DNA of 64,000 nucleotides, from NCBI GenBank assembly GCA_024742485.1, contig JANSYK010000003.1, positions 62,001 to 126,000 of the forward strand, given 5' to 3'. The DNA is from Alphaproteobacteria bacterium (GTDB lineage Bacteria > Pseudomonadota > Alphaproteobacteria > Rhizobiales > Rhizobiaceae). The position numbers were made by a program, and so were the translations under genes. The first letter of the stretch is position 1, and every line of letters starts with the position of its first letter. Shown piece by piece: positions 20,565 to 40,801 of this stretch. A model generated the notes under the pieces. That model saw only the letters and a list, made by a program, of their open reading frames with translations, made no database searches and was not told the DNA's origin.

Positions 20565-22442
20565 CTAAAGGGCGCTGATAAGCCTGACCTGAATGCGGTC
20601 GAACTCCTTGATCGCGTCCGACAACTGGTCATAGGGTTTGATGTCCGGATGGAGCCGCCGGACATTGTCACGGGTCTCCCCATATCGCCAGCCATCCAGT
20701 TCCCGGTCGATGCGCCAGGTCATGTGCTCCAGCTCTGACAGTTTCTCAAGCAGGTCGCCTTGCGAGAGCCGTTCCGCCGGAAGACTGGGAAGATTGCCAA
20801 GATCCTTCACCTGGAGGCCCGCGCTGAGCAGTTTGACCGGCACGTGATCGGCCGCCCTGCGACTGGCGATGCGATAGGTCTCCGACAATTCAGCCCATGG
20901 AAGCAATGTGGCATCTGTTGTCGATCGTCCTGGCTCATCGCCGGCCTGGATTTTCCGCTCCGTCCGGTAAGCCTCATGAACCTTCATGGCGATCTTTTCC
21001 CGTTCGCCGTCCAGATTGTCGATATGGCAGACCGATTCAATCCGCCCGAAGGGTTCAAAGGCGTCCGTCACGTCCCTGGTTGATGGCAGGTGATCGAGAT
21101 AGCCACCGTACCGCCGTGCCGTCCCACCCTCGAATTTTGCCATCATGATGTCGAGCGCCGACGGATCCTGAGACCAGGCATAGACCGGAGCGGACCAGAC
21201 CGCATGGCGCTTGCACCGGTCACGCAATGCCATGCCGCGCTGGATATTGTCATTGTGATGGCTGCCCGCGACGATGATTGCGGTCACCTGTCCATCGCAA
21301 GCATGATCGATCTGTTGAAGCAGGTCGGAGCCGGGAATATGGGCACCGATCGGAAGCCCATGCATGGCAATATCAAGTGCCCAGGCGAGCGGTTGGTCTG
21401 CTGGCGCATCGCGTCCATCGAGTCCGGCTTCAACCAGAGCGCCAAGTGCCTCGTTGCGTTCTTTCAAAACGCCGAGCATCTCCTCGACATCCTCGACGAT
21501 CCAGTCAATGCGTGGTTTATCCAGTCCGATCGCCGGTGAAATCCGCAGGAATTGCAGGACACACTCGACCGCCGTGTCGGAATGCCCGAGAACCACCAGA
21601 TGAACCCGTCGTTGTGACCGCATCATCGCCAGGTCGACAAAGGGAGTCCGCTCGATCAGCGCAATCGCGGTTTGGCGGGCGAAATTGAAGAAACGAATTT
21701 GCGTCGACGCGCCGCCCAGTTCAAGCAGGGTGTCATTGCGCTGCAGCTGATCAACCAGCCTGGCATTCTCGATGGTGACAAAAACGCTGAGGTCTTCATT
21801 GGCCTTCAGGCCGCGACTCTCCACAATGTCTTCGAGGATGGTCAGATTCCTCTCATCATCGCCGGAATTCACGACGATGCTTCGCGCATCCAGAATGCGG
21901 GCCGCGGACAGGGATGGGTTCAGCGTACCGAGCGAGGCGGCCATATAGAGCAAGCCACTGGCCCGGCACTGAAGCTTGGCCTCGGCGTCTGCTTTGATAT
22001 CGACAAGAACAATGTCCTTGTGATCCGCGTCGAGAAGCGACGTGGCGAATTTTTCCGAGGACGGATCATAGCCGACGATGATCGAATGTCCTTTCAGGAA
22101 CCGGATTTTGAACTTTTCGACTTCGTCCCTGAACAGCGCAAGCAGCACCGCCATGGTCGCCGCGAAGGAGGCAAGGCCGCCGCATAGGCGTGCAATCGTC
22201 AACAGCCAGCTATCGGTGCCCGCCGCAACTTTGAGCGTCGGAAAGAAGATACGAACAGTGATGGCCAGGCTGTCGAAGACCAGCTTGACCAGATAGGAAG
22301 CATAGGAGCCCTGGCTCTCGCTATAGGCTGAGACGTTGAGATTATGCTCGAGATTTCCGGCAAAACCGGTGACGATCGCAGCCAGGGCGACCCAGATGAA
22401 AACCCGGCTTAAGGTGGAGCCACTGGTCAGGTAGGAAAGCAT
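20565..22442 (-). CDS. Membrane protein with TrkA-N/RCK domains and C-terminal RyR domain
   Basis: 625 residues. Two or three N-terminal membrane segments (RVFIWVALAAIVTGFAG; ARLCGGLASFAATMAVLLAL) precede a Rossmann-like TrkA-N domain from about residue 115 (HSIIVGYDPSSEKFATSLLD) and a second one from about 283 (VHLVVLGHSDTAVECVLQFL). Residues about 569-615 match a ryanodine-receptor-type RyR domain (HMTWRIDRELDGWRYG ... LHPDIKPYDQL). The layout resembles ligand-gated K+ channels, but no TVGYG selectivity filter is present between the helices and the nucleotide-binding glycines are degenerate. It is divergent from the TIR-TPR gene 128 nt away. RyR domains occur in nucleotide-signal and conflict systems, so a ligand-gated membrane effector is a reasonable hypothesis. 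Confidence 0.8.
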   Translation of the reverse strand: MLSYLTSGSTLSRVFIWVALAAIVTGFAGNLEHNLNVSAYSESQGSYASYLVKLVFDSLAITVRIFFPTLKVAAGTDSWLLTIARLCGGLASFAATMAVLLALFRDEVEKFKIRFLKGHSIIVGYDPSSEKFATSLLDADHKDIVLVDIKADAEAKLQCRASGLLYMAASLGTLNPSLSAARILDARSIVVNSGDDERNLTILEDIVESRGLKANEDLSVFVTIENARLVDQLQRNDTLLELGGASTQIRFFNFARQTAIALIERTPFVDLAMMRSQRRVHLVVLGHSDTAVECVLQFLRISPAIGLDKPRIDWIVEDVEEMLGVLKERNEALGALVEAGLDGRDAPADQPLAWALDIAMHGLPIGAHIPGSDLLQQIDHACDGQVTAIIVAGSHHNDNIQRGMALRDRCKRHAVWSAPVYAWSQDPSALDIMMAKFEGGTARRYGGYLDHLPSTRDVTDAFEPFGRIESVCHIDNLDGEREKIAMKVHEAYRTERKIQAGDEPGRSTTDATLLPWAELSETYRIASRRAADHVPVKLLSAGLQVKDLGNLPSLPAERLSQGDLLEKLSELEHMTWRIDRELDGWRYGETRDNVRRLHPDIKPYDQLSDAIKEFDRIQVRLISAL

Positions 22443-22570
22443 AGGTTTTCCAGATCATGAAATGGGGCCTTTTTGCAAGGGCCATCTGCCCGTCTCATTT
22501 CAATATTGTGCCACCAACAGCACCTCACCGACCTTTCGATCCTATTGAAATCTGGCAACCATCCGGGTTT

Positions 22571-24808
22571 ATGGAAGGGATGAACAACGATACCAAAGAC
22601 GCGTCACCGGCACCGCTATCGGTATTCATATCCTACGCGCGCAAGGACATGCAGAAGGCCGACGCCATCGTCGCGGGTCTGGAGCAAAACGGATTCACGG
22701 TAACGATCGACCGGCGGGACCTGTCATTCGGCGAAGAATGGCAGGCGGAACTGGCCGATTTCATCCGTGAATCCGATACGGTGGTCTGGCTGGTCAGCCC
22801 GACATCAGTTGCGTCAAAGTGGTGCCGATGGGAACTTGGTGAAGTTCAGCGGCTGAGCAAGCGCCTCATACCGGTTGCCATAAGCCAGGTCGCTCCCGAC
22901 GAATTGCCGGAAGCACTCGGGCGTATTCATATCCTTCCAGTGGGCGAAGACTTCGCTATCGAACGCCACCTGAATGTGCTTGTCGAGACTCTCAACATGG
23001 ACCGGTCGTGGTTGAAACAGCACACAAGACTGGCTGACCGGGCACGGCAATGGTTGGACAAGAAAAAGTCCAGGGACCTGCTGCTGGTCCGCTCGGATCT
23101 TGCCGACGCCGAACAGTGGCGAGATCGTCAACCGAGAACGGCACCCGCACCGTCGGAAGAAATTCTCGATTTGATTTTGCAGAGCCGAAGGGCCCATGGG
23201 CGCCGGCTGAAAGTGCTGACGAGCATCTCCCTGACCATTGCCGTATGTGCCCTGGCCATATCAGCAGTGGCTGTATGGCAAAATCGCGTTGCCCAGACGG
23301 AGCGTGCCAGAGCGGAATCAACATTGCGCGCAGCGACCGGGGCGGCCAACAATCTCGTCTCCGATCTTGCTGTCAAATTCAAACAGACCAGCGTCCCGGG
23401 TCCGGTTGTGCGGTCGGTACTGGAGGAGGCGACCCAGCTTCAGGATCTGCTCAGCGAGAGTTTTCCCGGTGATGTCGCGCTTCAACGCAGTCGCGCGGCT
23501 GCGCTGACGGAACTTGGCGAAATTCATCTGGAACATGAGAACCTTTCAAAGGCAGCCGAGACACACCAGGAAGCATTGGATATCAGGCGGCGTTTGCAGT
23601 CGGATGAGGCCAATTCACAGACCCGCCGTGAAGTGCCGGTCAGCCTGAACCGGCTCGGCGACATCCGCTTGCGGCAGGGATCTGAACAGGGAGCCCTCGA
23701 TCTGTATGCCGAGGGGCTGGCACTATTGCGGTCGTTGTTGAATGAAGCCCCCGAGGATCCGCAATTGTGGCGGGATGTGTCCGTGAGCCTGGAAAAGATC
23801 GGAACCGTGAAATTGCGCAATGGCAACCTCACCGAGGCGCAGAGCGCCTTTGATGAAATGCTGGCCATCCGCACCCAGTTGATGGCGGATAACCCGACCG
23901 ATCAGGATGCCCGGGCGGATTTGTCAAACGCTTTGGAAAACATCGGTGACCTGGACCTGCAGCGAGGGCAACCCGTCAATGCGTTGAAATCGTTTCAGGA
24001 GGCCCTGGAATTGGCCCGCATGCTTGCCGAACAGGATGATGCCAATAGCAATTGGCAGCATTTGGTCGCGACAAAACTCAACAAGATCGGTGATGTCCGC
24101 CTGCGGCAAAATGAGGATTCCCTGGTGGCGTATGAAGAAAGCATCGTCATCATGCAAAATCTGGCATTGCAGGATCCCGGCAATGCACGGTGGCAACGCG
24201 ATCTTTTCGTCGGTCACAGCAAGACCGGTGATGCAAAACTGGCATCGGGAGATCGGTCCGGGGCGAGATCGAGCTATCAGGCCGGGTTAGAGGTCATGCA
24301 GGCGCTTGTCGACAGGGACAGTGCAAACACCCAGTGGCAACGAGACCTTTCCGTTGCTTTCGAACGGCTTGGCAATGTCCACTTTCAAACCAGGAACATG
24401 GATGATGCGCTGATTGCCTATCAGCAAAGCCTGGACATCAGGCGTCAATTGACGGCCATCGATGCGAACAATCTGAACTGGCAACGTGATCTGGCTGTCA
24501 GCCTCGGCAAGATGGGCGATGCGCGATATGGCGCCGGGAACGCTGAAGGCGCGATCGAGGCCTATCAGGAGGGTTTGCGGATCGAGCGTGCGTTGGCTGA
24601 AAGGATTGAAGCCAATGTGCAATGGAGGATCGACATCGCCATAAGCCTGGTCAAGCTGGCGGAACTGGGTGTCGAGCGCCAACAATACCGTGCCGAAGCG
24701 CTCGGCATCCTGAAGGAATTGCAATCCGCCGGAGCCCTGACGGCGCAACAGGAAAACCTCGTTCCGATGTTGGAAAACGCGCTGGCTAATGGCGCATCAG
24801 ATCGCTGA
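22571..24808 (+). CDS. TIR domain-TPR membrane protein
   Basis: About 745 residues from ATG 22571; ATG 22580 or an upstream start at 22457 are alternatives. The N-terminal TIR domain (about residues 15-140) begins LSVFISYARKD and carries the WCRWEL motif with Glu88 at the expected NAD-hydrolase position. A single membrane helix (LTSISLTIAVCALAISAVAVW) follows at about 215-235, then about 450 residues of TPR-like repeats with a recurring W-Q-R-D-L and L-x-K-x-GD pattern. The TIR part should face the cytoplasm. It is divergent from the RCK-RyR gene, suggesting co-regulation. TIR proteins with sensor repeats act as NAD-depleting effectors in bacterial immunity; catalysis here is inferred. Confidence 0.87.
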   Translation: MEGMNNDTKDASPAPLSVFISYARKDMQKADAIVAGLEQNGFTVTIDRRDLSFGEEWQAELADFIRESDTVVWLVSPTSVASKWCRWELGEVQRLSKRLIPVAISQVAPDELPEALGRIHILPVGEDFAIERHLNVLVETLNMDRSWLKQHTRLADRARQWLDKKKSRDLLLVRSDLADAEQWRDRQPRTAPAPSEEILDLILQSRRAHGRRLKVLTSISLTIAVCALAISAVAVWQNRVAQTERARAESTLRAATGAANNLVSDLAVKFKQTSVPGPVVRSVLEEATQLQDLLSESFPGDVALQRSRAAALTELGEIHLEHENLSKAAETHQEALDIRRRLQSDEANSQTRREVPVSLNRLGDIRLRQGSEQGALDLYAEGLALLRSLLNEAPEDPQLWRDVSVSLEKIGTVKLRNGNLTEAQSAFDEMLAIRTQLMADNPTDQDARADLSNALENIGDLDLQRGQPVNALKSFQEALELARMLAEQDDANSNWQHLVATKLNKIGDVRLRQNEDSLVAYEESIVIMQNLALQDPGNARWQRDLFVGHSKTGDAKLASGDRSGARSSYQAGLEVMQALVDRDSANTQWQRDLSVAFERLGNVHFQTRNMDDALIAYQQSLDIRRQLTAIDANNLNWQRDLAVSLGKMGDARYGAGNAEGAIEAYQEGLRIERALAERIEANVQWRIDIAISLVKLAELGVERQQYRAEALGILKELQSAGALTAQQENLVPMLENALANGASDR

Positions 24809-25069: not shown

Positions 25070-26518
25070 ATGAAAATCAAGCGCCGGCTGACCATCGGAT
25101 ATGTTGGTGTTTCGATCGCGCCCTATTACGCCGAAAAATACAAGGTGCGGGAAAAGGCGGTCGCGGCCCTCAAACAATATGGCGATGACCTGGGATTTGA
25201 TGTGGTTGCCATCGAGCGGCCCATCCTGACAGACGCCGACGCAGCAACTGCGGCAAACGAGCTGCAGGATAGCAATATCGACTTGCTGATGATCCAGAAT
25301 GCCGCCTGCAGCATGGGCGAGCAGCTCTACCCTTTGCTTGACGTCGCTCCGCGTATCGGTTTGTGGTCGGTTCCCGATCCGAGCCTCGAAGGTGAGGTGC
25401 AGCTTTCCTCCTTCGTGTCGATGAATCACTATGCGAGCGTCATAAAACGCTATTTTCGCGACCGCGACATGCCGTTTAAGTGGTTTTACGGTGATGCCGA
25501 TTCCGAGCAGTTTCGCGCGCGGTTCACGGTCACCGCGCGTGCCCTGAAAGCGGCAATCAATCTTGAGCACACGCGTATCGGCTGGATCGGCGGCATCTCC
25601 CCGGGTTTTGTGGGCATGCTGTTTGACGAGGTCAAACTGCGCGAACGGCTTGGTGTCCATGTGGAGTCTCTCGACCTCGCTGCCGTGGTCAAGCGTGCCG
25701 AGGCAGTCGATCCGGCAAGGGTTGCGACATCGGTGGCTGAAATCAAGGGCGCTGCGGCCGGTATAGCGGTGAGTGACGATTCCGCATTTGATCGCGTGAC
25801 ACGGTTTTACCTGGCCTTGCATGATGTTGCGCAGGAGATGGAATTCGACGGCCTTGCCGTGCAATGCTGGTCGACTATTCAGCAATTGTACAATATCGCG
25901 CCCTGCATGGCCTATAGCTGGCTTGGCAGCGAGCACGACATGCCGGTGTCCTGCGAAGGGGATGTGCCAGGTGCGATCAGCATGCATGTGCTCAACCTGC
26001 TGTCTGACCGCAAGGGATCCTCCACTCTGCTTGACCTCGCCGCGCTCGACCCGGAACGGCAGGCCATTCAGATGTGGCATTGCGGCGTGACACCGCGCCA
26101 TTTTGCCAATGAGGATGGCATCCGATGGGTCGATCATGTCACGCTCGGTCGCAATGGATCCGACGGGCCCTATGGTGTTGCCGGTGATCAGGTTTTTGCA
26201 AAGCAACCGGTGACCCTGACCTATGTCAGCGAGGATGCCGAACATATTCTCGTGGTCAAATCGGAAGTCGTCGATCACCCGTCAAAGGGGTTTGATGGTA
26301 CCCGAGGCTGGCTGTCGAAGACCTATCTCAATGGCGAGCCGATCGACATCTGGGATCTGGTCAACACGTTCACGGTAAGAGGATTGCAGCATCACTTTGC
26401 CATGGGGCAGGGCGATGTCACGCGAGAATTGTTGGAACTGGCAGCATGGAAGAAGATGCAGCTCGTCGAGCCGGTGCCCTATGCGGACTATCTTCAATGG
26501 GACGGTGTTAATGTATAA
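25070..26518 (+). CDS. L-fucose/L-arabinose isomerase-family protein
   Basis: 482 residues, with the N-terminal Rossmann-like domains and C-terminal metal-site domain of the fucose/arabinose isomerase superfamily. Seen: CWSTIQQLYNIAPCMAYSWL followed by VSCEGDVPGAISMHVL, which supplies an acidic metal ligand, and the C-terminal GLQHHFAMGQGD segment with the expected His. Members interconvert aldoses and ketoses with Mn2+. It is first in the operon, 240 nt after the promoter, and is followed by the ABC importer and the 3-epimerase, kinase and aldolase genes. With a cytosolic GH51 arabinofuranosidase in the same operon, L-arabinose to L-ribulose is the simplest reaction; other pentoses are possible. 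Confidence 0.82.
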   Translation: MKIKRRLTIGYVGVSIAPYYAEKYKVREKAVAALKQYGDDLGFDVVAIERPILTDADAATAANELQDSNIDLLMIQNAACSMGEQLYPLLDVAPRIGLWSVPDPSLEGEVQLSSFVSMNHYASVIKRYFRDRDMPFKWFYGDADSEQFRARFTVTARALKAAINLEHTRIGWIGGISPGFVGMLFDEVKLRERLGVHVESLDLAAVVKRAEAVDPARVATSVAEIKGAAAGIAVSDDSAFDRVTRFYLALHDVAQEMEFDGLAVQCWSTIQQLYNIAPCMAYSWLGSEHDMPVSCEGDVPGAISMHVLNLLSDRKGSSTLLDLAALDPERQAIQMWHCGVTPRHFANEDGIRWVDHVTLGRNGSDGPYGVAGDQVFAKQPVTLTYVSEDAEHILVVKSEVVDHPSKGFDGTRGWLSKTYLNGEPIDIWDLVNTFTVRGLQHHFAMGQGDVTRELLELAAWKKMQLVEPVPYADYLQWDGVNV

Positions 26519-26548
26519 TCTGGTTTAAACAAGGGAGGTTGATAACAG

Positions 26549-27820
26549 ATGATGAAATTGAAACGAACTTTGGGCGCGGTGCTGGTCGCGGCCGCAACGG
26601 CAGTGGGTTCAGGCGCCTGGGCGCAAGACCTGCCCGGCTTCAGCAGCTGGGACGAAGTGGTCGAAAAGGCCAAGGGCCAGACGGTCTACTGGTACATGTG
26701 GGGCGGCTCGGATGCCATCAACGGATTTGTCGATGAGTTCTACGGCAAGCCGCTGAAAGAGCAGTATGACATTACCCTCAACCGCGTGCCATTGGCCGAC
26801 ACCGTCGATGCCGTCAATCAGGTGATCAGCGAAAAGGAAGCTGGTGCCACTGGCGACAAGGGCACGATCGACATGATCTGGATCAATGGTGAGAACTTCT
26901 TCACCCTGCGTCAGGCCGACCTGCTGTATGGCCCCTGGGCAGAAGGCACGCCGAACTCAGCGCTGGTCGACTGGAGCAATCCGGCAGTCAATCTGGACTT
27001 CGGGCGCCCGGTCGATGGCTATGAAAGCCCCTGGTCAAGCGCACAGTTCCACTTTGTCTACGACTCGGCCCGCTTGAAGGAAGAGGACCTGCCGCGATCC
27101 TATGCGGCACTCGGAAGCTGGATCGAGGCCAATCCCGGCCGGTTCACTTACATGGCGCCTGGTCCGGGTGCATTCGTCGGTACACGATTCGTCAAACAGC
27201 TGTTTTTCGAACTGAGCGGCGGCCATGATCAATGGGTAGGCCCGTTCAATCAGGAACTCTACGACAAATGGGCTCCCGAGGTTTGGAAGACACTGCTGGC
27301 CTGGAAGCCGAATTTGTGGCGTGAGGGCGAGACCTATCCAGCCGGCAATGCCGAATTGCGCGAACTTTTCGCCAATGGTGAAGTCGAATTCGATTTCACG
27401 CAGTCGCCGTCGGGCGCAGCGCCGAACATCAATGCCGGCCTGATCCCGCCGACGTCACGGGCATTTGCCTTTGATGCCAACTTGATCGGTGATTTCAACT
27501 ATCTTGCAATCCCGTTCAATGCACCGAACAAGGCAGCGGCGCTTGTGACGGCCAATCTGGTCCTGCGTCCTGACCGTCAGGCTGCGCAAGTTCAGCCCGC
27601 CAACGGTTTCTGCTGTGGTTGGGGCATCGATGTAAACAAGGTAACGGATCCTGCCGGCAAGGAAGCGATTGCTGTCGCCATGCAAAACCTTGGCGATGCA
27701 GCAGCCGATCCAAACCGGCTGGCCGCAGCATTGGTCTCCGATATTGCTGCCGAATATCAGTCGAAGATCGAAGCGGACTGGCAGAAATACGTTCTGCGCG
27801 GCGAGCCGCTTCCGAACTGA
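26549..27820 (+). CDS. ABC transporter substrate-binding protein, YnjB-type
   Basis: 423 residues with a signal peptide (TLGAVLVAAATAVGSGAWA) and a GGAGG site 9 nt upstream of ATG 26549. The mature part begins with VYWYMWGGSDAINGFVDEF and contains GTIDMIWINGENFFTLRQ, a signature of the YnjB-like solute-binding family. A strong hairpin follows the stop, before the first permease gene, a usual way to give binding protein in excess. Context (GH51 enzyme, sugar isomerase) implies a sugar or short arabinoside as ligand; the family ligand is not established. Confidence 0.85.
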   Translation: MMKLKRTLGAVLVAAATAVGSGAWAQDLPGFSSWDEVVEKAKGQTVYWYMWGGSDAINGFVDEFYGKPLKEQYDITLNRVPLADTVDAVNQVISEKEAGATGDKGTIDMIWINGENFFTLRQADLLYGPWAEGTPNSALVDWSNPAVNLDFGRPVDGYESPWSSAQFHFVYDSARLKEEDLPRSYAALGSWIEANPGRFTYMAPGPGAFVGTRFVKQLFFELSGGHDQWVGPFNQELYDKWAPEVWKTLLAWKPNLWREGETYPAGNAELRELFANGEVEFDFTQSPSGAAPNINAGLIPPTSRAFAFDANLIGDFNYLAIPFNAPNKAAALVTANLVLRPDRQAAQVQPANGFCCGWGIDVNKVTDPAGKEAIAVAMQNLGDAAADPNRLAAALVSDIAAEYQSKIEADWQKYVLRGEPLPN

Positions 27821-27835
27821 TCCTGCCGTCAATAC

Positions 27836-27861
27836 GTTGGCCGGGCCTCCGTCCGGCCAAC
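27836..27861 (+). other. Intergenic hairpin between binding protein and permease genes
   Basis: GTTGGCCGG (27836-27844) and CCGGCCAAC (27853-27861) form a perfect 9-bp GC-rich stem with an 8-nt loop, 16 nt after the stop. No T-run follows, so it is more likely an mRNA-stabilising or partial attenuation element that keeps the binding protein more abundant than the permeases. Confidence 0.6.
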
Positions 27862-27888
27862 ACTTGAATCATTGAGAAGGGGCGCCCT

Positions 27889-28764
27889 ATGAAATGGGAG
27901 CGTGTTCGGATCCCGCTTATGCTGGGCCCGACAATGGCGATTATTACCATTTTGTTCTTCGGTAGCCTGGGTTTTGGTTTTCTCCAGAGCCTTGGATATC
28001 AGCCGCAAATCGGCAACACCGGGTTCAGTCTGGATGCCTATTATGCCGTGATGTTTTCGGAGCGCAGCGCCAGCCAGTTCTGGCCGGGCCTTGCGCTGAC
28101 CCTGTGGGTTGCCTCTGCCAGTACCTTCATTTCCGCGGCGCTGGCCGTCGGCCTGTCGCTGTTGTTGCGCCGGACCTTTTTCGGCAAGAAGCTGGCTGTC
28201 TTCCTGTTCCAGTTGAACCTGCCGATCCCGCATCTGGTCATTGCGGTGGGCATGCTGCTCCTATTCGCGCAGAGTGGTCTCGTGGCCCGATTTGCCGGCG
28301 AACTGGGCATTATCGATGCACCGCGGGACTTTCCCGTTCTGACCAGAGACCCCTATGGGCTGGGCATTATCCTGGCCTATATCTGGAAGGAGGTCGCGTT
28401 TTTCGGCATCATCGTCATGGCGGTTCTTCAGTCGCTGGGTGAGGACTACGAGGCAGTGGCGCAAAGCCTCGGCGCCAATCGATGGCAGCGCTTTCGTACG
28501 GTGACCCTGCCGCTGATCATGCCGGGACTGATGTCGGCCTCGATCATCGTCTTCGCCTTCACGTTCGGCACCTATGAGGTGCCCCGAATTCTCGGAGTTC
28601 AGCATCCCAAGATGCTGCCGGTTCTGGCGCTTGAATATTTCCTCAATCCGGACCTCAACGCCCGCGCCGAAGGCATGGCCCTGAGCATCATAATTGCAGT
28701 GATCGTGTTCGCTCTGGTGTTCCTTTACATGTATGTCAGCGCCCGCACAGTGCGAAAGAGTTAA
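27889..28764 (+). CDS. ABC transporter permease (YnjC-like, first subunit)
   Basis: 291 residues, about six membrane helices. The cytoplasmic EAA loop is recognisable as EDYEAVAQSLGANRWQRFRT, which docks on the ATPase. Start ATG 27889 has AAGGGG 6 nt upstream. The next gene encodes the second permease 4 nt later. In E. coli the related YnjC is one fused protein, while here the two halves are separate genes. It forms the inner-membrane channel for the substrate bound by the preceding protein. Confidence 0.9.
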   Translation: MKWERVRIPLMLGPTMAIITILFFGSLGFGFLQSLGYQPQIGNTGFSLDAYYAVMFSERSASQFWPGLALTLWVASASTFISAALAVGLSLLLRRTFFGKKLAVFLFQLNLPIPHLVIAVGMLLLFAQSGLVARFAGELGIIDAPRDFPVLTRDPYGLGIILAYIWKEVAFFGIIVMAVLQSLGEDYEAVAQSLGANRWQRFRTVTLPLIMPGLMSASIIVFAFTFGTYEVPRILGVQHPKMLPVLALEYFLNPDLNARAEGMALSIIIAVIVFALVFLYMYVSARTVRKS

Positions 28765-28768
28765 AGCG

Positions 28769-29716
28769 ATGTCGGATCTTACACTCTCCAGCACCACAAG
28801 TTCTTCGAATGTCAGGGCGCGACGCGGTTTCGGCCGCGTGGTGTTCTATCTGACCATCTTCGTCATGTGCCTGATGCTGATATTGCCGGTGATTGCGTTT
28901 TTCATCAACGCGTTTGCCTTTCGCTGGTTCTATCCCCAATTTGTCCCGAATGAGTGGAGCCTGCAGGCCTGGGAGCGGTTGCGGCTCATTCCGCGCGCCG
29001 GCGACCGCAGCCTGGAGGGTTTCATCTCCCTTTGGGCGAGTGTTCCCGATGTGGTCAGCGCGCTGGGGCTCAGCCTTTTCATCGGTGCCGTGGTCACGGG
29101 CTTTTCCATCATTATCGGCCTGCCCGCCGCGCGGGCGCTCGGTCTCTACCGGTTTCGCGGCAAGCGGATCATCGAGTTCATGGTGATAACGCCGACCATC
29201 GTTCCGCCGATTGCCTTCAGCCTTGGTCTGAACATCAACTTCATTCGTTGGGATTTGGCACTTGAAGCCGCAGGGTTCCCGCTGGATCTTTCAGGAAGCA
29301 TCATCGGCGTGAGCATCGTGCATCTGGTGCCGGTGATGCCCTATGTGGTTCTGACATTGAGCGGGGTTTTCGCCAATTACAATCCGGATTTCGAAGCGCA
29401 GGCGCGCAGCCTTGGCGCCGGTCCGGTCCGGATATTCTGGGATGTCACTCTGCCGGCGATCCTGCCCGGATTGTTTGTTGCCGCACTGTTCGCGTTTCTT
29501 GTGTCGTGGAGCCAGTACCTGCTGACCTTCCTGATAGGACAGGGCCGGGTGATCACGTTGCCGATGCTGCTGTTTGCAGCCGCCGGCAGCGGAAACAATG
29601 CGGTGATTGCCGCGCTGTCGCTGATCTTCATCGCACCGGCCATTCTGATCCTGCTTGTGGCATCCCGGTTTCTGTCAGGTGAATCGAGTGCAGTCGGAGG
29701 CTTTGGACGCGTATGA
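28769..29716 (+). CDS. ABC transporter permease (YnjC-like, second subunit)
   Basis: ATG 28769, 4 nt after the previous stop, gives 315 residues; an upstream GTG at 28733 would overlap the first permease. About six helices and the EAA loop NPDFEAQARSLGAGPVRIFW are visible. An N-terminal cytosolic extension of about 25 residues rich in Ser and Arg precedes helix 1. The stop overlaps the GH51 gene start by 4 nt. It pairs with the 27889 permease in the heterodimeric channel. Confidence 0.9.
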   Translation: MSDLTLSSTTSSSNVRARRGFGRVVFYLTIFVMCLMLILPVIAFFINAFAFRWFYPQFVPNEWSLQAWERLRLIPRAGDRSLEGFISLWASVPDVVSALGLSLFIGAVVTGFSIIIGLPAARALGLYRFRGKRIIEFMVITPTIVPPIAFSLGLNINFIRWDLALEAAGFPLDLSGSIIGVSIVHLVPVMPYVVLTLSGVFANYNPDFEAQARSLGAGPVRIFWDVTLPAILPGLFVAALFAFLVSWSQYLLTFLIGQGRVITLPMLLFAAAGSGNNAVIAALSLIFIAPAILILLVASRFLSGESSAVGGFGRV

Positions 29717-31677
29717 CCCATTCCGCAGCAGCGCATTTTGACGCGCGGATCAAGCTGGATCCGAAAAGTCAGATCGGTAATGTTCACGATCATCTCTATG
29801 GCGCCAATCTGGAGCATATCGGGCGGTCCATCTATCAGGGCCACTGGTCGGAATTGCTGCGGAACCGAAAGTTTCTGGGCCATGACAAGATGTTTGTCGG
29901 GCTTTCAGAGGGGCTGTCCCACCAGAATCCAAGCTATGGCGTTGTGCTGCCCTGGGAGGCCCTCGAACCGCATTTCGACAATGTGCTGTATGTTCATGAC
30001 AACACGACTTTTTACACCGGCACGCAGTCGCAGCGCATTACAATCCGTCACGCCGACGGCAAGGCACACGGCGTCCAACAGAACGGCCTGACTGTACAGA
30101 TGGGACAAACCTACATTGTCCGCGCGGTGTTGAAGGGCATTGGCCAGGATGTCGAAGTCAGGCTGGGGGATCAGCTCTGGACGGTTACCGGCGTCGGTGA
30201 AGGCTGGCAGGAATACGAGACTGAATTGACCCTCGGCCGTGATGACGACAATGCCGTCTTTTCCATAGCCCACAGTGCGCAGGGCGATCTGTGGATCGGT
30301 TGTGCTTCGGTCATGCCATGCGAACAGCTTGATGGCCATCGCCCCGACGTTGTGGCTGCGCTGCGCGAATGGGGGCCGACCTTCCTGCGTTGGCCGGGCG
30401 GCAATTTCGCATCGGCCTATCACTGGGAGCGGGGCATTGGAGACCGGAACCGCCGGCCGGGATATCTGGATCCGGCCTGGTCATTGTGGGAGCCCAATGA
30501 TGTCGGCACCGATGAATTCATGGCGCTGTGTCGACATGTCGACACGGAACCGATCCTGACGATCAACATGGGAACCGGCACGCCGGATGAGGCGGCTCGC
30601 TGGGTCGAATATTGTAACGGTTCGGCGGATACACCGATGGGCAAGCTGCGCGCCGCCAATGGTCATGCCGAACCCTATGGCGTCAAGACGTGGTTTGTCG
30701 GCAATGAGCAATTCGGCAACTGGCAGGTGGGCACCTGTGATGCCGAGACCTATGCGCACCGCTATCTGGAATTCTACGACGCAATGATAGCTGTCGATGA
30801 CACACTTGACCTGATCGCCGTCGGGGCGCCGACCGACCTTTATGGGCACTGGAACGAACTGGTGCTGAAGGGCACTGGCGACCGGATGAAAAAGCTGAGT
30901 GTCCACTACTATTCGATCCGCACCGAAAAGTGGACGACCCCGCCACCGGCGGACGAGTTGTATTGGCCCAAGGTGGCATCTGCGCATGAGGTGGGTCTGA
31001 TGCTCGATCGCACCTGGGAGATCGTGCAGGCCCATGCAACACCGCCACCGCCGATCGCGTTTGACGAATGGAACACCTATGTCGCCGGCAAGCCGCCTGA
31101 TTTCTTCGAGGACTACGGTGTTGCCGACGGGCTTTATACGGGCGCATTGATGAATGCCTGCCTGCAACGCGCCGATTGGATCAAGATGTCGGCGAGTTTC
31201 AATCTGATCAATGTCATGGGCAACTACAGGGTCACGCCCACAGCCGTGTGGAAGACCCCGTCGACCCTGGTGCTGGAGCTGTTCACCCGGTTGCGTGGAC
31301 CGGTATCGGTCGGATGTCGTGCTGAAGGACCGACTGTCGCGACACCCGCTGCCGGTACGTTGCCGGCCTATGACGACATGCCCATCGTTGATGCGGCCGC
31401 AACATACGACCCCGAGCGGGCGATGCTGTATCTGTCGATCGTCAATCGCGATCCCGAAAAGCCGGCGCGGGTCGAGCTTGCGGGCGTGACACGTAACGGC
31501 GCCGGCCGGATTCATCGGGTCACCGGAAACGAGCCGCAGGCGCTCAATACCGAATTGGATCCCGAAGCTGTTGTGATTGAAGAAGAGGAGTGGCCGGCCG
31601 ATGCGTCGCTGCTCGAATTGCCACCGCATACGGTGGCCATGGTGGAGTTTCAAATCGATGTTTCAAATGACGGGTGA
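29713..31677 (+). CDS. Alpha-L-arabinofuranosidase, GH51-like
   Basis: 654 residues with a (beta/alpha)8 catalytic part and a C-terminal beta domain, as in GH51 enzymes. Motifs: NLEHIGRSIYQG near the N-terminus, FLRWPGGNFASAYHW, the acid/base Glu332 in TWFVGNEQFGNW and the nucleophile Glu452 in AFDEWNTY. No signal peptide is present, so it acts in the cytoplasm on imported arabinosides or short oligosaccharides and releases L-arabinose. Translation is coupled to the permease gene by an ATGA overlap. An inserted segment (about residues 110-190, carbohydrate-binding-like beta strands) precedes the barrel core. Confidence 0.9.
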   Translation: MTHSAAAHFDARIKLDPKSQIGNVHDHLYGANLEHIGRSIYQGHWSELLRNRKFLGHDKMFVGLSEGLSHQNPSYGVVLPWEALEPHFDNVLYVHDNTTFYTGTQSQRITIRHADGKAHGVQQNGLTVQMGQTYIVRAVLKGIGQDVEVRLGDQLWTVTGVGEGWQEYETELTLGRDDDNAVFSIAHSAQGDLWIGCASVMPCEQLDGHRPDVVAALREWGPTFLRWPGGNFASAYHWERGIGDRNRRPGYLDPAWSLWEPNDVGTDEFMALCRHVDTEPILTINMGTGTPDEAARWVEYCNGSADTPMGKLRAANGHAEPYGVKTWFVGNEQFGNWQVGTCDAETYAHRYLEFYDAMIAVDDTLDLIAVGAPTDLYGHWNELVLKGTGDRMKKLSVHYYSIRTEKWTTPPPADELYWPKVASAHEVGLMLDRTWEIVQAHATPPPPIAFDEWNTYVAGKPPDFFEDYGVADGLYTGALMNACLQRADWIKMSASFNLINVMGNYRVTPTAVWKTPSTLVLELFTRLRGPVSVGCRAEGPTVATPAAGTLPAYDDMPIVDAAATYDPERAMLYLSIVNRDPEKPARVELAGVTRNGAGRIHRVTGNEPQALNTELDPEAVVIEEEEWPADASLLELPPHTVAMVEFQIDVSNDG

Positions 31678-31734
31678 GCCTTCCATCGCCACCACGTGCC
31701 AATTTTGGACCAATGCTGGCAGGCGAGGGCGATC

Positions 31735-32778
31735 ATGACGCATCTGGCGATCAGGGGATTGACCAAGCGCTTTTCCGGTCAGACCGAAGCTGCCGTCGCA
31801 GATCTCAATCTGGAGATTGAATCCGGCAGTCTTGTTGCGCTGCTTGGACCGTCCGGCTGTGGCAAGACGACGACCATGAAAATGGTTGCTGGTCTTCTCG
31901 AGCCGACGGCCGGTGACATTCTTTTCGATGAAAAGTCCATCATCAACATTGCGCCGGAGCGGCGTGGCGCGGTCATGGTGTTTCAGAATTATCTGCTGTT
32001 TCCCTATATGACCATTGCCCAGAATGTCGGCTATGGCCTCAAGATCCGCAAGGTCGACCGCGCTATCATTGACCAGCGCGTCTCAGAAATTCTCGAAATG
32101 GTCCGCTTACCCGGAATAGAAAGCCGCCGTCCGTCCGAACTGTCTGGCGGTCAGCAACAACGGGTCGCTCTGGCGCGCGCACTGGTTGTGGAACCGAGAT
32201 TGCTGCTGCTGGACGAACCCCTCAGCAACCTGGATGCGCATTTGCGATTTGAACTGCGTGATCTCATCCGCGATATCCAGCAAAAGATGGGCATCACCAC
32301 CGTCTTTGTTACGCACGATCAGGAAGAGGCGGTTGTCCTGGCTGACAAGGTCGCGCTCATCCTCGACGGCAGATTGCGGCAATATGCCGATGCCGACGTT
32401 TTCTACAAGCGACCGGCGGATGAGGCGACCGCGCGTTTCTTCGGTGGGCAGAACTTTATCTCCGGCACATCGGCCAATGGCACGTTCGAGGCCGCGCTTG
32501 GTTCTCTGAAGTTGCCATCGGATGCACCCGAGGGCACTGGAATTCTGACATTTCGTCCAGAGAACGTCCGGATTGGGGCGGCTGCAGATGGTGAGAACAC
32601 GTTGCAGGCGAAATTGACCGACAAGATATTTCTAGGAACCCAGACCCGGCTCAAACTAGCGGTCGGCGACGACATCATAACGGCGATAGCCAATCCTAAT
32701 GATGTCGAGGGATATCTCGTCGACCAGGAGGTGCCGTTGTCTCTTCCGCCGGCAACATTATGGGTTTTGACAAAGTAG
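31735..32778 (+). CDS. ABC transporter ATP-binding protein (sugar/spermidine type)
   Basis: ATG 31735 with GAGGG upstream gives 347 residues; a GTG at 31696 is less likely. All ATPase motifs are intact: Walker A GPSGCGKTT, signature LSGGQQQRVALARAL, Walker B LLLLDEPLSNLD and the H-loop FVTHDQEEA. The last about 110 residues form the MOBE/TOBE-like regulatory domain (ILTFRPENVRIG). It completes the importer although the GH51 gene sits between it and the permeases. Confidence 0.93.
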   Translation: MTHLAIRGLTKRFSGQTEAAVADLNLEIESGSLVALLGPSGCGKTTTMKMVAGLLEPTAGDILFDEKSIINIAPERRGAVMVFQNYLLFPYMTIAQNVGYGLKIRKVDRAIIDQRVSEILEMVRLPGIESRRPSELSGGQQQRVALARALVVEPRLLLLDEPLSNLDAHLRFELRDLIRDIQQKMGITTVFVTHDQEEAVVLADKVALILDGRLRQYADADVFYKRPADEATARFFGGQNFISGTSANGTFEAALGSLKLPSDAPEGTGILTFRPENVRIGAAADGENTLQAKLTDKIFLGTQTRLKLAVGDDIITAIANPNDVEGYLVDQEVPLSLPPATLWVLTK

Positions 32779-32787
32779 GAATTCGCG

Positions 32788-33624
32788 ATGAAATTCGGTG
32801 TACATGCAGGGCTTTGGATGGCGCGTTGGACCGATGAACTGGCGCCCATCGTCAAAACCGTCGCCGATCTCGGATTTGATGGTGTCGAGGTTTCGCTGCT
32901 GGGCATGAGCGACGAGAAGGCCGAGGCGCTCGGGCAACTGATCACGGATCATTCGATTGAGGTGACCTGCTCCGATGGTCTGTCGGCAGATGCCGACATC
33001 ACATCCGATGATGAGTCTGTCCGCGCCGCCGGTATCGACCATCTGCGCTGGGCCATTCGGACGACCGCCAAGATCGGTTCAAGGGGGCTTGCCGGCGTCG
33101 TCTTCGCACCCTGGGGTGTTTATGACCCGGCCAACATTCCCGCACGGGCTGCGCGATCGGCAGAAGCATTTGCAGCGATCGACGGCGATTTGGCCCATCA
33201 TGATGTGACCCTTGGCATCGAGGCGATCAACCGGTTCGAGACCGATCTGGTCAACACGGCAGCCGATGCCGTTGCGATGGCGGAGGCATCGGGCTCCTCC
33301 CGGGTCGGCGTGCTGCTGGATACGTTCCACCTCAACATCGAGGAAAAGGACATCAAGTCCGCGATTGTCGAGACCGGCGAGCGGCTGGTTCACTTTCATG
33401 TGTCGGACAATGACCGAGGGGTGCCTGGGTCCGGCCATGTGCCATGGGACGAGGTGAAGTCTGGGCTAGAAACGCTTGGTTACAACGGCTGGATTGTCTC
33501 GGAAATGTTCGTCATTCCCGGTAATCCGGCCAGCGCCGACCTCAACATCTGGCGCAACATCGAACCCGATGCCACTGATGCCGCAGCGCGTGCATTGGCC
33601 TTCATGAAAAAGACGTTCGGATGA
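32788..33624 (+). CDS. Sugar 3-epimerase (D-tagatose/D-psicose 3-epimerase-like TIM barrel)
   Basis: 278 residues, an AP-endonuclease-2-type TIM barrel. The four metal and catalytic residues of ketose 3-epimerases are at the expected spacing: Glu145 (LGIEAINRFETD), Asp178 (LLDTFHLNIEE), His204 (HFHVSDNDRG) and Glu239 (IVSEMF). These enzymes invert C3 of free ketoses with Mn2+. Following an arabinose-type isomerase, conversion of L-ribulose to L-xylulose is the simplest inference. The stop overlaps the DhaL-like gene by 4 nt. Confidence 0.87.
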   Translation: MKFGVHAGLWMARWTDELAPIVKTVADLGFDGVEVSLLGMSDEKAEALGQLITDHSIEVTCSDGLSADADITSDDESVRAAGIDHLRWAIRTTAKIGSRGLAGVVFAPWGVYDPANIPARAARSAEAFAAIDGDLAHHDVTLGIEAINRFETDLVNTAADAVAMAEASGSSRVGVLLDTFHLNIEEKDIKSAIVETGERLVHFHVSDNDRGVPGSGHVPWDEVKSGLETLGYNGWIVSEMFVIPGNPASADLNIWRNIEPDATDAAARALAFMKKTFG

Positions 33625-34160
33625 GCAATGTGTTTTTCAAATCGTTGGTGACTCATTTCGAGGGGTTGGAAGAACACCTCAACACCCTTGATGCGGCCAC
33701 CGGTGACGGCGATCACGGTACGACCATTCTCAAGGGATTGCGGGCAGCGGCAGACGATGCCGACGGCAATGCCGGAAAGGCCTTCAGAAAGGCCGCCGGT
33801 GGTGCATCAGGGTCTCTGTTTGGGCTTGTGGTTGGCGCGCTGGAATCAACGATTGCGGGACAGGCGCCACTTGATGAGGCGCTTTCCCATGCGGCTGGAC
33901 GCATCAGCCAAATGGGACAGGCCAAGGCAGGGGACAAGACCATGCTGGATGCCCTGCTTCCCGCTGCTGCTGCCGGCGCTGATCCACAGTCCGTCGCAAT
34001 CGCCGCGCGGCAAGGTGCCGAGGCCACGCGCGACATGTCGGCAATGCGCGGCCGCGCGAAATATGTCGAAGGGGCAGGGGTGGGACATCTTGATGCCGGC
34101 GCAATATCCGTCGCCGAAATGCTCGAAACATTTGCCAAAGCCGCCGGGAGAACGCCATGA
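33621..34160 (+). CDS. DhaL-like kinase subunit (ATP-binding domain of dihydroxyacetone-type kinase)
   Basis: 179 residues, an all-helical barrel as in DhaL. The Mg-ATP binding Asp set is present near the N-terminus (LDAATGDGDHGTTI: Asp24, Asp29, Asp31), and the glycine-rich GGASGSLFGLVVGAL loop follows. It overlaps the epimerase upstream and DhaK downstream by 4 nt each. No DhaM phosphotransfer protein is nearby, so ATP rather than PEP is probably the donor. In this context the kinase likely phosphorylates the terminal hydroxyl of a ketopentose rather than dihydroxyacetone. Confidence 0.85.
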   Translation: MSNVFFKSLVTHFEGLEEHLNTLDAATGDGDHGTTILKGLRAAADDADGNAGKAFRKAAGGASGSLFGLVVGALESTIAGQAPLDEALSHAAGRISQMGQAKAGDKTMLDALLPAAAAGADPQSVAIAARQGAEATRDMSAMRGRAKYVEGAGVGHLDAGAISVAEMLETFAKAAGRTP

Positions 34161-35185
34161 AGAAACTGTTCAATGACAAGGACCGCATTGTCGAAGACAT
34201 GATCGATGGGTTTGTCTCCGCCTTTCCCCGCATCGTGACCCGGGGCGCCAATCCGCGTGTCGTTCGGCGGACGGAACCCAAACCACGCGACAGCAAGGTC
34301 GCGCTTTTGATCGGAAATGGCAGTGGACACGAGCCGATTGCCATGGGTTATGTCGGCGAGGGCCTGTTGGATGCGAATGTTGTTGGCGACGTGTTTGCCG
34401 CCCCGTCACCCGATCTTATCCTCGAGGGTATCGAGGAAGTCACTGGCGAAGCCGGTGCCGTTCTGCTGATCTCACGCCACGAAGGGGACGTGATCAATGG
34501 CAATGCAGCGGCGATGATGGCAGAGGATGACGGACTGAAAGTGCGCCCGCTGCTGATGTATGACGATATTTCCTCGGCGCCCAAGGAGCAGGAAGACGAA
34601 CGCCGCGGCGCTGCGGGCACCCTGTTCATCTACAAGGTTCTGGGTGATGCAGCCGAAAAAGGCATGGCATTGGACGATTTGGTGAGCCTTGGCGAAGACG
34701 TGCGCGCGCGAATCCGGACCTTGGGCGCAGCACTGTCACCTGGTGTGTCTCCGATAACCGGTGAGCTGATGTTCACCCTGCCCGATGACGAGGTGTATAT
34801 CGGCATGGGCGTCCACGGGGAGCCTGGTGTCAGCCGTCGCAAGGTGGAGCCGGTCAGCGAGCTGGTGTCTTTCATGGTTGAAGAACTTTTGAACGACCGG
34901 CCGATCGAGCCGGGAACGCCCACGGTCGTGCTGGTAAACGGTTCCGGCGGCACGACAATGATGGAGCTTTTGACCGTCTATGGTGAGGTTGCAAGGAATC
35001 TGTCGGAGCGGACCATACCGGCAATCTCGCCGATGATCGGATCCTATTCGACAACCCAGGAAATGGGCGGCTTCTCGATTTCACTCTTCACGCCGACGCC
35101 TGACATGCTGGCGCATTGGCAGGCACCGCATCGAAGTCCCTATTTCGCCCATATCCAGGACGGCGACGGAGCGGGCAATGGGTGA
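34157..35185 (+). CDS. DhaK-like kinase subunit (ketose-binding)
   Basis: 342 residues with the DhaK fold. The GNGSGHEP loop (His58) and the covalent-substrate His220 in IGMGVHGEPG are intact, so the substrate carbonyl can be held as a hemiaminal. Homologues have been shown to act on erythrulose isomers as well as dihydroxyacetone (established knowledge). It overlaps DhaL by 4 nt and the aldolase by 8 nt. Together with the epimerase and LacD-type aldolase, a ketopentose-1-phosphate product is the simplest reading. Confidence 0.87.
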   Translation: MKKLFNDKDRIVEDMIDGFVSAFPRIVTRGANPRVVRRTEPKPRDSKVALLIGNGSGHEPIAMGYVGEGLLDANVVGDVFAAPSPDLILEGIEEVTGEAGAVLLISRHEGDVINGNAAAMMAEDDGLKVRPLLMYDDISSAPKEQEDERRGAAGTLFIYKVLGDAAEKGMALDDLVSLGEDVRARIRTLGAALSPGVSPITGELMFTLPDDEVYIGMGVHGEPGVSRRKVEPVSELVSFMVEELLNDRPIEPGTPTVVLVNGSGGTTMMELLTVYGEVARNLSERTIPAISPMIGSYSTTQEMGGFSISLFTPTPDMLAHWQAPHRSPYFAHIQDGDGAGNG

Positions 35186-36086
35186 TCTGTCCAGCCAGCC
35201 GATCCATGGGGTCGCGGTGGATGCGGGCAGCGGGCTCGAGGCAGCCATTCGTGAAGCGCGTGGCGAACGCGCAATGCCCGATGATCTGCTGATGTTCAAG
35301 CGTAGCGTTCTGACGATCCTGGGGCCGCAGGCCACCACGGTTCTGGTCGATGCAACCTGTGGGCCGGACTTGCTGTCGGATTATCCGGGCGGCTGCGAGC
35401 CGATGATGGCCTATGAGGCGGACGTCTATCACATATCCGACGACGATCGCGTCACCGTTCTACCAGAAGGCTTGGCCGTATCCGATTACCCCGGGCTCGG
35501 TGTCAAACAGCTCAAATTCTTTATGTATTATGCGCCCGATGACCAGCCGGAGCTCAACGCCAGGAAGCTGGATATCCTTGCCCGTGTGGGGCAGGAATGC
35601 TCCGCGAACGATCTGCGTTATCTGGTTGAGCCACTTGTCTATCATCCGCTGATCAAACCCGGGACAAAAGAATTTGCACGGTTGAAACCGGAACTGGTTC
35701 GCCGGGCGACCGAGGCCTTTGCCGAACCGCGGCTTGCGGCCGATGTTTTGAAAGTCGAGGTGCCGGTCGACCTCAATTTCGTGGACGGCTTCGGTACGCC
35801 GGACATGTCCCGGCAACAGGCCCTGGATGCCTTCCGCCGAGCCGCTGAACCGGCCGCGGGACGGGATCTTGTGTATCTGAGCGCGGGCGTCGCATTTGAG
35901 GCGTTCGAAGCGTCTTTGGTGATGGCCAGGGAGGCAGGGGTGCCATTCGCCGGGTTCATGTGCGGGCGTGCCATCTGGTCGGACGCCGTTGGCGTGTTCG
36001 GGCGGGAAGGTGAAACCGCCCTGGCCGATTGGCTGGCCGATACGGGCAGGACCCGGCTTCGGCGTCTGATAGAAGCGCTTCAATAG
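35178..36086 (+). CDS. Tagatose-1,6-bisphosphate aldolase-like class I aldolase (LacD family)
   Basis: 302 residues. The Schiff-base lysine is Lys192 in DVLKVEVPVD, and Glu151 in LVEPLVYH matches the acid residue of LacD. C-terminal phosphate-binding segments YLSAGVAFEAFEASL and FMCGRAIW are also LacD-like. LacD enzymes cleave ketose phosphates to dihydroxyacetone phosphate plus an aldehyde. Here no phosphofructokinase-type gene is present and the kinase is DhaKL-type, so the substrate may be a ketopentose 1-phosphate, giving DHAP and glycolaldehyde (inference). It is the last gene of the operon, 10 nt from the convergent nucleoside hydrolase stop. Confidence 0.85.
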   Translation: MGDLSSQPIHGVAVDAGSGLEAAIREARGERAMPDDLLMFKRSVLTILGPQATTVLVDATCGPDLLSDYPGGCEPMMAYEADVYHISDDDRVTVLPEGLAVSDYPGLGVKQLKFFMYYAPDDQPELNARKLDILARVGQECSANDLRYLVEPLVYHPLIKPGTKEFARLKPELVRRATEAFAEPRLAADVLKVEVPVDLNFVDGFGTPDMSRQQALDAFRRAAEPAAGRDLVYLSAGVAFEAFEASLVMAREAGVPFAGFMCGRAIWSDAVGVFGREGETALADWLADTGRTRLRRLIEALQ

Positions 36087-37194: not shown

Positions 37195-37944
37195 CTAATT
37201 ATAGGTCGGCGTGCGGGATTGCTGGGAAAGATTGAAGCTGACAGAGCCCGTGCGAAACACATCCTCATGGAAAACAATGCGACCCTTGTCGTCGAAAGCC
37301 GAACAGGCCTGCTTCAACAGCGGGCAGCCCGGTTCGACATTGAAGGTTTCAGCCATTTTCTGATCGGCGGCTACGGGACTGATATCCTCGCAGGCGGCGG
37401 ACCAGTCCAGATTGAAACGCTCGCTCAATATCCGCAATATGGACTGGCCGGGACCGCTTTCCGGAAAGTCTTCGGGCTTGGCATCCTGCAGAAGGCGGGT
37501 GGGCGCGTAAGTCATGACCAGCATGCGCGGGGTACCATCCACCAACCGCAATCGACGCACGCAGGTAATTGGCTCCTGCAGCAAATCATCCGGGATATTC
37601 GCGATACTGCCGGCGGAAGGGTCCAGATGCTCGATGGACAGGAACCGTGTTGTCGGCTCCCGACCGGCCCGAAGCATGGCGTCGGTAAAGGACGTCAGGC
37701 ATGTGTCGGAGGAGGGCGATTGGGTCAGGACGGTGTAACCGCTTCCCTGCTTGCTCTCCACATAACCCTCGCGCACCAGAATATCGAGCGCGCGTCGGAT
37801 CGTCACCCGGCTGACATTGAACTGGGACGACAATTCCACCTCGGTCGGGATCCGCGCGCCGACAGGGTAGCGCCCGGACTTGACACGCTCCAGGATAGCC
37901 CGGTGGGCGCGTTCATATTTTGGTATGTCGTCCTCTGGCAACAT
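37195..37944 (-). CDS. GntR family regulator, HutC type (UTRA domain)
   Basis: ATG 37944 has GGGAG 8 nt upstream and gives 249 residues; ATG 37983 is an alternative. The winged HTH is typical (GARIPTEVELSSQFNVSRVT, then RRALDILVREGYVESKQGSG). The remaining about 165 residues form a UTRA ligand domain (ITCVRRLRLVDGTPRMLVMT). HutC-type proteins bind GT-N-TA-N-AC dyads; such a palindrome lies 87 nt upstream at 38031-38042 and a close copy lies at the pentose operon promoter. It is the probable repressor of both units, with a sugar or nucleoside-derived effector. Confidence 0.9.
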   Translation of the reverse strand: MLPEDDIPKYERAHRAILERVKSGRYPVGARIPTEVELSSQFNVSRVTIRRALDILVREGYVESKQGSGYTVLTQSPSSDTCLTSFTDAMLRAGREPTTRFLSIEHLDPSAGSIANIPDDLLQEPITCVRRLRLVDGTPRMLVMTYAPTRLLQDAKPEDFPESGPGQSILRILSERFNLDWSAACEDISPVAADQKMAETFNVEPGCPLLKQACSAFDDKGRIVFHEDVFRTGSVSFNLSQQSRTPTYN

Positions 37945-38030
37945 GGCACGCACTCCCATTCGAATTGTCGTCCGAACACTCATGATCCGCCGTCAAGCCA
38001 TGATCGTATTCCGGTCGGTAACTAGCAGAT

Positions 38031-38799: not shown

Positions 38800-39011
38800 A
38801 AACACATCCATCCGCGGAACAGTTGCAGTCCGTACCGTGATACAGCATTTTTATGTTTGACGGTTGGTCAGCGAATGAAGACGATGGCGCATCGAACACC
38901 GCAAATGCGTCCGTGAGCGATTCTTTGCTCAGCGGAATACTGGTGGTGCTGCCGGCCATGGAGATCTGAGATTTGCTTTCCGCAATCGTGAAATCCCTTT
39001 TCAGGAAACAC

Positions 39012-40794: not shown

Positions 40795-40801
40795 GCAGGT
40801 C

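Follow-up and report, generated by a model that had tools for sequence, protein, structure and literature searches.

A stretch of 64,000 nucleotides from an alphaproteobacterium of the Rhizobiaceae (assembly GCA_024742485.1, contig JANSYK010000003.1, positions 62,001 to 126,000; hereafter ‘the window’) carries, at its positions 25070–36086, an operon of ten genes, followed by genes for a nucleoside hydrolase (NH) and a GntR/UTRA regulator. Together these probably form a catabolic cassette, of which an imported beta-D-ribofuranoside would be the core input, to be cleaved in the end to dihydroxyacetone phosphate (DHAP) and a two-carbon aldehyde. Sequence comparison places the genes as one version of a conserved set, mostly alphaproteobacterial. 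An initial annotation had taken the operon for a route that degrades arabinosides; the chemistry that it proposed probably holds in outline, and the core substrate is probably another one.

The proposed route can be followed from gene to gene. An ABC importer would bring in the riboside: it comprises a solute-binding protein of SBP_bac_8, PRK11622 subfamily (26549–27820; 404.9 bits against a cut-off of 203), two permeases with Pfam BPD_transp_1 matches (27889–28764 and 28733–29716) and a PhnT/PotA-like ATPase identified by family match (31696–32778). The NH (PF01156; 36097–37182, − strand; assigned from Pfam, alignment and a model) would split the riboside, removing the aglycone. The free aldose would be isomerised to a 2-ketose by a FucI/SftI-like aldose-ketose isomerase, here of a GH51-associated subtype (25070–26518; profile and identity comparisons). 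A member of the D-tagatose/D-psicose 3-epimerase family (AP_endonuc_2; 32788–33624; family match and alignment to a structural relative) would then epimerise it at C3, from the D-ribulose type to the D-xylulose type (3S,4R); a two-subunit DhaKL-type kinase (DhaL-type subunit, Dak2, 33621–34160; DhaK-type subunit, Dak1, 34157–35185) would phosphorylate the ketose at C1; and a LacD-family class I aldolase (DeoC/LacD; 35178–36086) would cleave the ketose 1-phosphate to DHAP and the two-carbon aldehyde, which an aldehyde dehydrogenase with its gene within or next to the cassette would probably oxidise in some relatives. Kinase and aldolase were assigned by family match, and DhaK and aldolase by alignment as well. 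The remaining gene of the operon encodes a GH51 alpha-L-arabinofuranosidase-like glycosidase with an Alpha-L-AF_C domain and a CBM4_9-like insert (29713–31677; Pfam and alignment to 3ug3); the regulator (37195–37983, − strand) was assigned by Pfam. We infer the order of steps, and every substrate and product, from what is observed: gene content, families, catalytic residues, clustering, a kinase-aldolase reading frame in one relative, and altered residues in hydrolase and aldolase.

All ten open reading frames (ORFs) of the operon lie on the + strand, at the coordinates and in the families that the initial annotation gave them; its gene set was incomplete, in that hydrolase and regulator were left out. 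The gaps between the ten run from −32 to +68 bases; five of the nine junctions overlap, and one further gap is of 9 bases. The NH gene is convergent to the operon and directly downstream, 10 bases from the aldolase stop, with the regulator gene beyond it. GH51, epimerase, DhaK and aldolase can all be aligned to solved relatives.

The relatives compared are 44 loci, each 14 kb or longer: 41 come from the 46 of a contig scan, whose five shorter loci were dropped, and three are plasmids. Each of the DhaL, DhaK, aldolase and importer genes (the solute-binding protein included) is present in all 44, as is an isomerase of some kind; the epimerase is present in 43, and in 43 of these 44 near-complete loci epimerase, DhaL, DhaK and aldolase are kept together. 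By record title, 41 of the 46 scan loci come from alphaproteobacteria (roseobacters, SAR116, Devosia, Hoeflea, Nitratireductor and others); the others include two Granulosicoccus-type loci, one from Flavobacteriales and one from Chloroflexi. Many of the genera are marine, going by general knowledge of the genera and not by a tally of isolation sources. Within the window's own genus, the aldolase was found in eight of eight genomes; genus and scan counts overlap, because L054 (Hoeflea poritis) and L057 (Nitratireductor sp. XY-223) share at least 16.5 kb of identical sequence with genomes of that genus. A class-wide search of 385 genomes for the aldolase returned only the window's own at E 1e-60, a count of one that is a lower bound, as at most six candidates were scored per genome. 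The cassette appears sharply bounded: among 79 flanking ORFs scanned, from 117 kept, no Pfam family is common to more than four. In Devosia algicola (L029:8990–10912) DhaK and aldolase make up a single ORF of 640 aa, which is what one would expect of enzymes acting one after the other; a sequencing error is possible there. This ORF and the clustering across 44 loci support a claim already made in the initial annotation, that a free-sugar isomerase, ketose 3-epimerase, DhaKL kinase and LacD aldolase form a unit making DHAP.

The choice of substrate turns on the two glycosidases. The NH is present in 43 of the 44 loci and the regulator in 44, whereas GH51 is present in only three (L024, L025 and L035), which makes an imported ribofuranoside the most likely core substrate. 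By the same distribution, arabinose, the substrate proposed at first, was rejected as the core one. In that account GH51 frees L-arabinose, which goes by way of L-ribulose, L-xylulose and L-xylulose 1-phosphate to DHAP and glycolaldehyde. The acid/base and nucleophile Glu motifs of GH51 do match those of 3ug3, and are kept in four of four GH51 proteins; no AraA (PF02610) match was found in the window genome at E 0.001; and GH51 and the window's type of isomerase are confined to exactly the same three of the 44 loci. But 41 cassettes do without GH51; L035 has GH51 and no epimerase; and L-ribulose 1-phosphate, already of the tagatose type (3S,4S), would need no epimerase if the aldolase is tagatose-type. 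As the main route, this is quite unlikely. The genes of known arabinose routes, said to be missing, are indeed missing from the operon, and no AraA was found in the genome; the genome does, however, have eight FGGY kinase matches.

L-arabinose is possible as a side input in GH51 carriers. The window's isomerase is 76–86% identical to those of the three GH51-carrying relatives, and 27–34% to other cassette isomerases; because GH51 travels with an isomerase subtype of its own, a second input, perhaps L-arabinose, is plausible here. GH51 and its isomerase would plausibly be an added O-furanoside input in this genome and three relatives, perhaps for an alpha-L-arabinofuranoside, and the arabinose part has the look of a local addition. 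The insert in GH51 (about residues 48–203) scores 25.5 bits as CBM_4_9, just under the cut-off of 25.9. The other type of isomerase, ISO_R, is also encoded in the window genome, at C120:1,073,055–1,074,455, adjoining acyl-CoA ligase, zf-ChsH2 and thiolase-like genes; this locus (G000:C120:1069684–1074455, or L021:7685–12456; ligase 69% identical to that of L026) may be what is left, after loss of the middle part, of a full cassette such as genus mates have. A phage terminase gene and rpsB lie near it. G400 has the same arrangement. An ISO_R-type isomerase occurs elsewhere in three of the four GH51 genomes (in G454 it does not adjoin the ligase), and none was found in the fourth, G453, from which L025 comes. 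The L025 cassette lacks the NH; its genome has one elsewhere, beside an acyl-CoA ligase on a 10,952-base contig. G456, the genome of L036, has two isomerases of the same subtype (C1:792063–793472 and C1:1683381–1684781; 52% and 62% to L054). It is plausible that there is one isomerase per glycosidase, with kinase and aldolase shared; a pairing of the NH with ISO_R, and of GH51 with the window's type, is suggestive only.

The predicted structure of the cassette NH is a normal NH fold (pLDDT 91.5), and the Asp cluster that binds calcium (D30, D32, D38, D39 and D299) is kept in 39 of 39 cassette hydrolases, that is, the window's and 38 contig rows, with L040 (unresolved letters) and the plasmid rows excluded; the Asp motif is two residues longer than in three aligned PDB chains. 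The 5' end of the site is another matter. In RihA of E. coli, Asn158 and Glu164 are the residues that hold the ligand's 5'-OH, according to the available text of PMC2898832; IU-NH of C. fasciculata turns over nucleosides without a 2', 3' or 5' hydroxyl only very slowly, according to that of PMC8910321. In profile alignments to the three PDB chains, on which the 5' ligand positions were read by eye and among which RihA itself does not figure, the Glu of the E-x-N motif lines up with Ser219, and the Asn six positions earlier with Pro213. In the cassette hydrolases Ser219 is found in 39 of 39 and Pro213 in 38, so that the usual 5'-OH ligands are absent; in non-cassette relatives the Glu is still there in four of four. 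Two extra segments (about residues 69–112 and 278–286) are largely missing from non-cassette relatives, and within them W96, R99 and N279–H282 are invariant (39/39). Because of these replacements and extra segments, the 5' pocket has probably been remodelled, and by alignment the enzyme departs at its 5'-OH site from the characterised nucleoside hydrolases. The altered ligands would favour a 5-modified substrate but fall short of proof, since a hydroxyl could still be bound by Ser. Eight of the 44 cassettes have, within or next to them, a gene for a PNP_UDP_1-family protein of the nucleoside phosphorylase superfamily (e.g. L026:2748–3527 and L027:6848–7618), which is a second hint of N-ribosides.

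A plainer account supposes ordinary or arabinosyl nucleosides with a free 5'-OH, giving, once the base is removed, D-ribose or D-arabinose, then D-ribulose, D-xylulose and D-xylulose 1-phosphate, and from this DHAP and glycolaldehyde. It accords with the conserved fold and Asp cluster, with the capacity of Ser to hydrogen-bond the 5'-OH, and with the action of FucI-type isomerases on D-arabinose. However, a ribokinase route would be simpler; and the aldehyde dehydrogenase of L019 does not prefer PRK10090 (which we take to be AldA; 324 bits), scoring higher against phenylacetaldehyde (509 bits) and betaine-aldehyde (495 bits) models, all below cut-off. Both RihA ligands, as named in the available text of PMC2898832, are replaced. 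We regard this account as rather unlikely.

The catalytic residues claimed for epimerase, DhaK and aldolase hold across the cassette sequences compared. The epimerase keeps E145, D178, H204 and E239 in 47 of 47 sequences; DhaK keeps its covalent His220 in 50 of 50, and the Dak2 Asp cluster is present; the aldolase keeps D15, K113 and E151 in 50 of 50, and the Schiff-base Lys192, S235 and R264 each in 49, with one gap. S235 and R264 we take to be the 1-phosphate site. Where the LacD motif is Asp-Gln-Arg, as in 5hjl and in a paralogue of the window genome described below, the cassette aldolase has Asp-x-Gly, with Gly17 in 50 of 50. If the missing Arg holds a terminal phosphate, as we presume, the substrate would be a 1-phosphate with an uncharged tail, in agreement with a C1 kinase acting just before the aldolase. 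As for the epimerase, 3-epimerisation turns D-ribulose (3R,4R) into D-xylulose (3S,4R, fructose-type), and makes L-xylulose (3R,4S) from L-ribulose (3S,4S), which is tagatose-type from the start; given these configurations, the enzyme makes more sense for a riboside input.

The same enzymes could be read as serving hexofuranosides such as galactofuranosides, with galactose converted by way of tagatose, sorbose and a 1-phosphate to DHAP and glyceraldehyde: the epimerase is closest to D-tagatose/D-psicose 3-epimerases, the aldolase passes the cut-off of the broader PRK12858 subfamily (tagatose 1,6-diphosphate aldolase; 230.1 against 184), and GH51 accepts 1,2-trans furanosides. The constant glycosidase is, however, the NH and not GH51, and strict ribose specificity is common to all characterised NH isozymes according to the available text of a review (PMC8910321). 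Hexofuranosides are very improbable.

Several points weigh against the riboside proposal. Several cassette enzymes fall under NCBIfam equivalog cut-offs: the epimerase (219.3 against 300, psicose epimerase), DhaK (318.2 against 406.25), DhaL (89 against 138.3) and the aldolase (153.6 against 432.2, lacD). The isomerase is the weakest assignment of the operon, resting on weak similarity: it has no Pfam match, its NCBIfam SftI match is sub-threshold (149.8 bits against 700), it has no significant PDB match when searched alone, and a profile of 40 relatives matches L-fucose isomerase weakly (E 0.007). No reported activity was found for any cassette member. D-ribose itself is normally used via ribokinase. 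L035, with both NH and GH51, lacks the epimerase in its cassette, and the best other match in its genome is 34%, so the epimerase may not be obligatory; LacD enzymes, moreover, are described as non-stereoselective, which weakens the stereochemical reason for having one. An aldehyde dehydrogenase of the cassette kind (at least 52% identity) is found in or near only 20 of the 44 loci, and the window genome has none closer to that kind than 44–45%. Finally, 41 of the 44 loci have an acyl-CoA ligase gene, 41 a zf-ChsH2 gene and 41 a thiolase-like gene, a module that a plain two-carbon aldehyde does not explain.

If this module handles the aldehyde by way of its acid and a CoA ester, then that aldehyde is something other than plain glycolaldehyde. 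The module is then a hint, the second, of a modified sugar, and could equally concern the aglycone. In the thiolase-like protein (L019:3169–4329 and relatives, 43 sequences), EGGG, GAP and ExY motifs stand where thiolases presumably carry the nucleophilic Cys, GHP and HD respectively; an ordinary thiolase is therefore doubtful, and with its zf-ChsH2 partner the protein may, from its motifs, be a retro-aldolase of the Ltp2 kind. An MFS transporter gene is present in 30 of the 44 loci. Sulfatase genes lie beside the cassettes in four SAR116-type loci (L037–L040), beside the acyl-CoA ligase in the genome of L035 (L127:1791–3308), and upstream of the MFS gene in Marinovum algicola (L020:463–1824).

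A 5-modified riboside fits the altered residues of both hydrolase and aldolase, and would give a route like the DHAP shunt made from unrelated enzymes. In the DHAP shunt, or 5-deoxyribose disposal (drdK-drdI-drdA), acting on methylthioadenosine and 5'-deoxyadenosine, a riboside is converted to a ketose 1-phosphate and then to DHAP and an aldehyde that depends on the C5 group, according to the available text of PMC6079011 and PMC10986504. The cassette route, as proposed, has the same beginning and end. The shunt itself, so far as those sources describe it, phosphorylates C1 before isomerisation, with enzymes like methylthioribose kinase or methylthioadenosine phosphorylase, like methylthioribose 1-phosphate isomerase, and a class II aldolase of the fuculose-1-phosphate type; the cassette would isomerise first, and in place of these enzymes encodes its hydrolase, free-sugar isomerase, 3-epimerase, DhaKL kinase and LacD-type aldolase of class I. 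None of the families defining the shunt in the available text of PMC6079011 (methylthioribose-kinase- or phosphorylase-like, MtnA-like, class II aldolase) was found in the operon. By its gene families, then, the cassette would work like the shunt and not belong to it. That it is an independently evolved DHAP shunt for ribosides with a non-hydroxyl C5, yielding DHAP and a substituted acetaldehyde that goes on to a substituted acetate, is a tentative proposal, possible and well short of probable.

One might go further and name algal arsenosugars (5-deoxy-5-dimethylarsinoyl-ribosides) and their nucleoside precursor as the natural substrates. Such compounds occur as O-ribosides and as N-ribosides, which would suit the pair of glycosidases, GH51 and NH; further hints come from the changed 5'-OH ligands, the sulfatases, a weak ArsK-like score of the MFS protein in three plasmid loci, and hosts such as Marinovum algicola and Devosia rhodophyticola. 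Against this, the ArsK scores of 75–102 bits are far below the cut-off of 400, five other cassette MFS proteins best match a lactate transporter, and there is no arsenic family among the 25 listed of 106 flanking families. Sulfonium or methylthio ribosides fit equally well. Arsenosugars are a long shot.

Other known systems share parts of the logic. The L-fucose, L-rhamnose and D-arabinose routes also use a free-aldose isomerase (the cassette isomerase is distantly FucI-like), a C1 kinase and an aldolase to DHAP; they differ in having an FGGY kinase and a class II aldolase, and neither 3-epimerase nor NH. Sulfoquinovose pathways of the SftI/YihT type and tagatose LacD pathways draw on the same isomerase and aldolase superfamilies; a sulfoquinovose pathway was rejected, as the isomerase fails the SftI and the aldolase the lacD equivalog cut-off. 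The window genome has a cluster at C44 about 189600–193700 (L023:9581–13666), near a GntR regulator gene, with an SftI-like isomerase (271 bits, below 700), a LacD-type aldolase and a ribokinase-like kinase; this is likely a separate isomerase-kinase-aldolase sugar route, with another kinase family than the cassette and with the Asp-Gln-Arg aldolase motif mentioned above. The D-apiose/apulose pathway, likened here by description and not by sequence, has a DhaK-type apulose kinase acting on a five-carbon ketose and ends in DHAP and glycolaldehyde; it differs in its branched sugar and in having no 3-epimerase or NH. Engineered pentose routes follow the same step logic (isomerase, tagatose 3-epimerase, kinase, aldolase, giving glycolaldehyde), assembled by design from FucK/FucA and RhaB/RhaD.

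Upstream of the operon, a TIR-TPR protein gene (22457–24805, +) is divergent from one for a TrkA_N/RyR-domain protein (20565–22442, −). Downstream of the cassette (38973–43083), a ThiF-family gene (39919–40794) is flanked by two ORFs without Pfam match, and a GNAT-domain protein gene (41992–43083) follows.

Among open-licence PMC papers, judged by title and abstract, no description of this cassette was found. It would represent, in roseobacters, SAR116, Devosia, Hoeflea and their relatives, a riboside-to-DHAP pathway that is sharply bounded and probably complete. Knowing its substrate would identify a metabolite imported by these bacteria. Should that substrate be a 5-modified riboside, the DHAP shunt would have been invented twice, the second time from unrelated enzymes, and the cassette might offer a genetic way into the microbial breakdown of compounds such as methylthioadenosine, sulfonium ribosides or arsenosugars.

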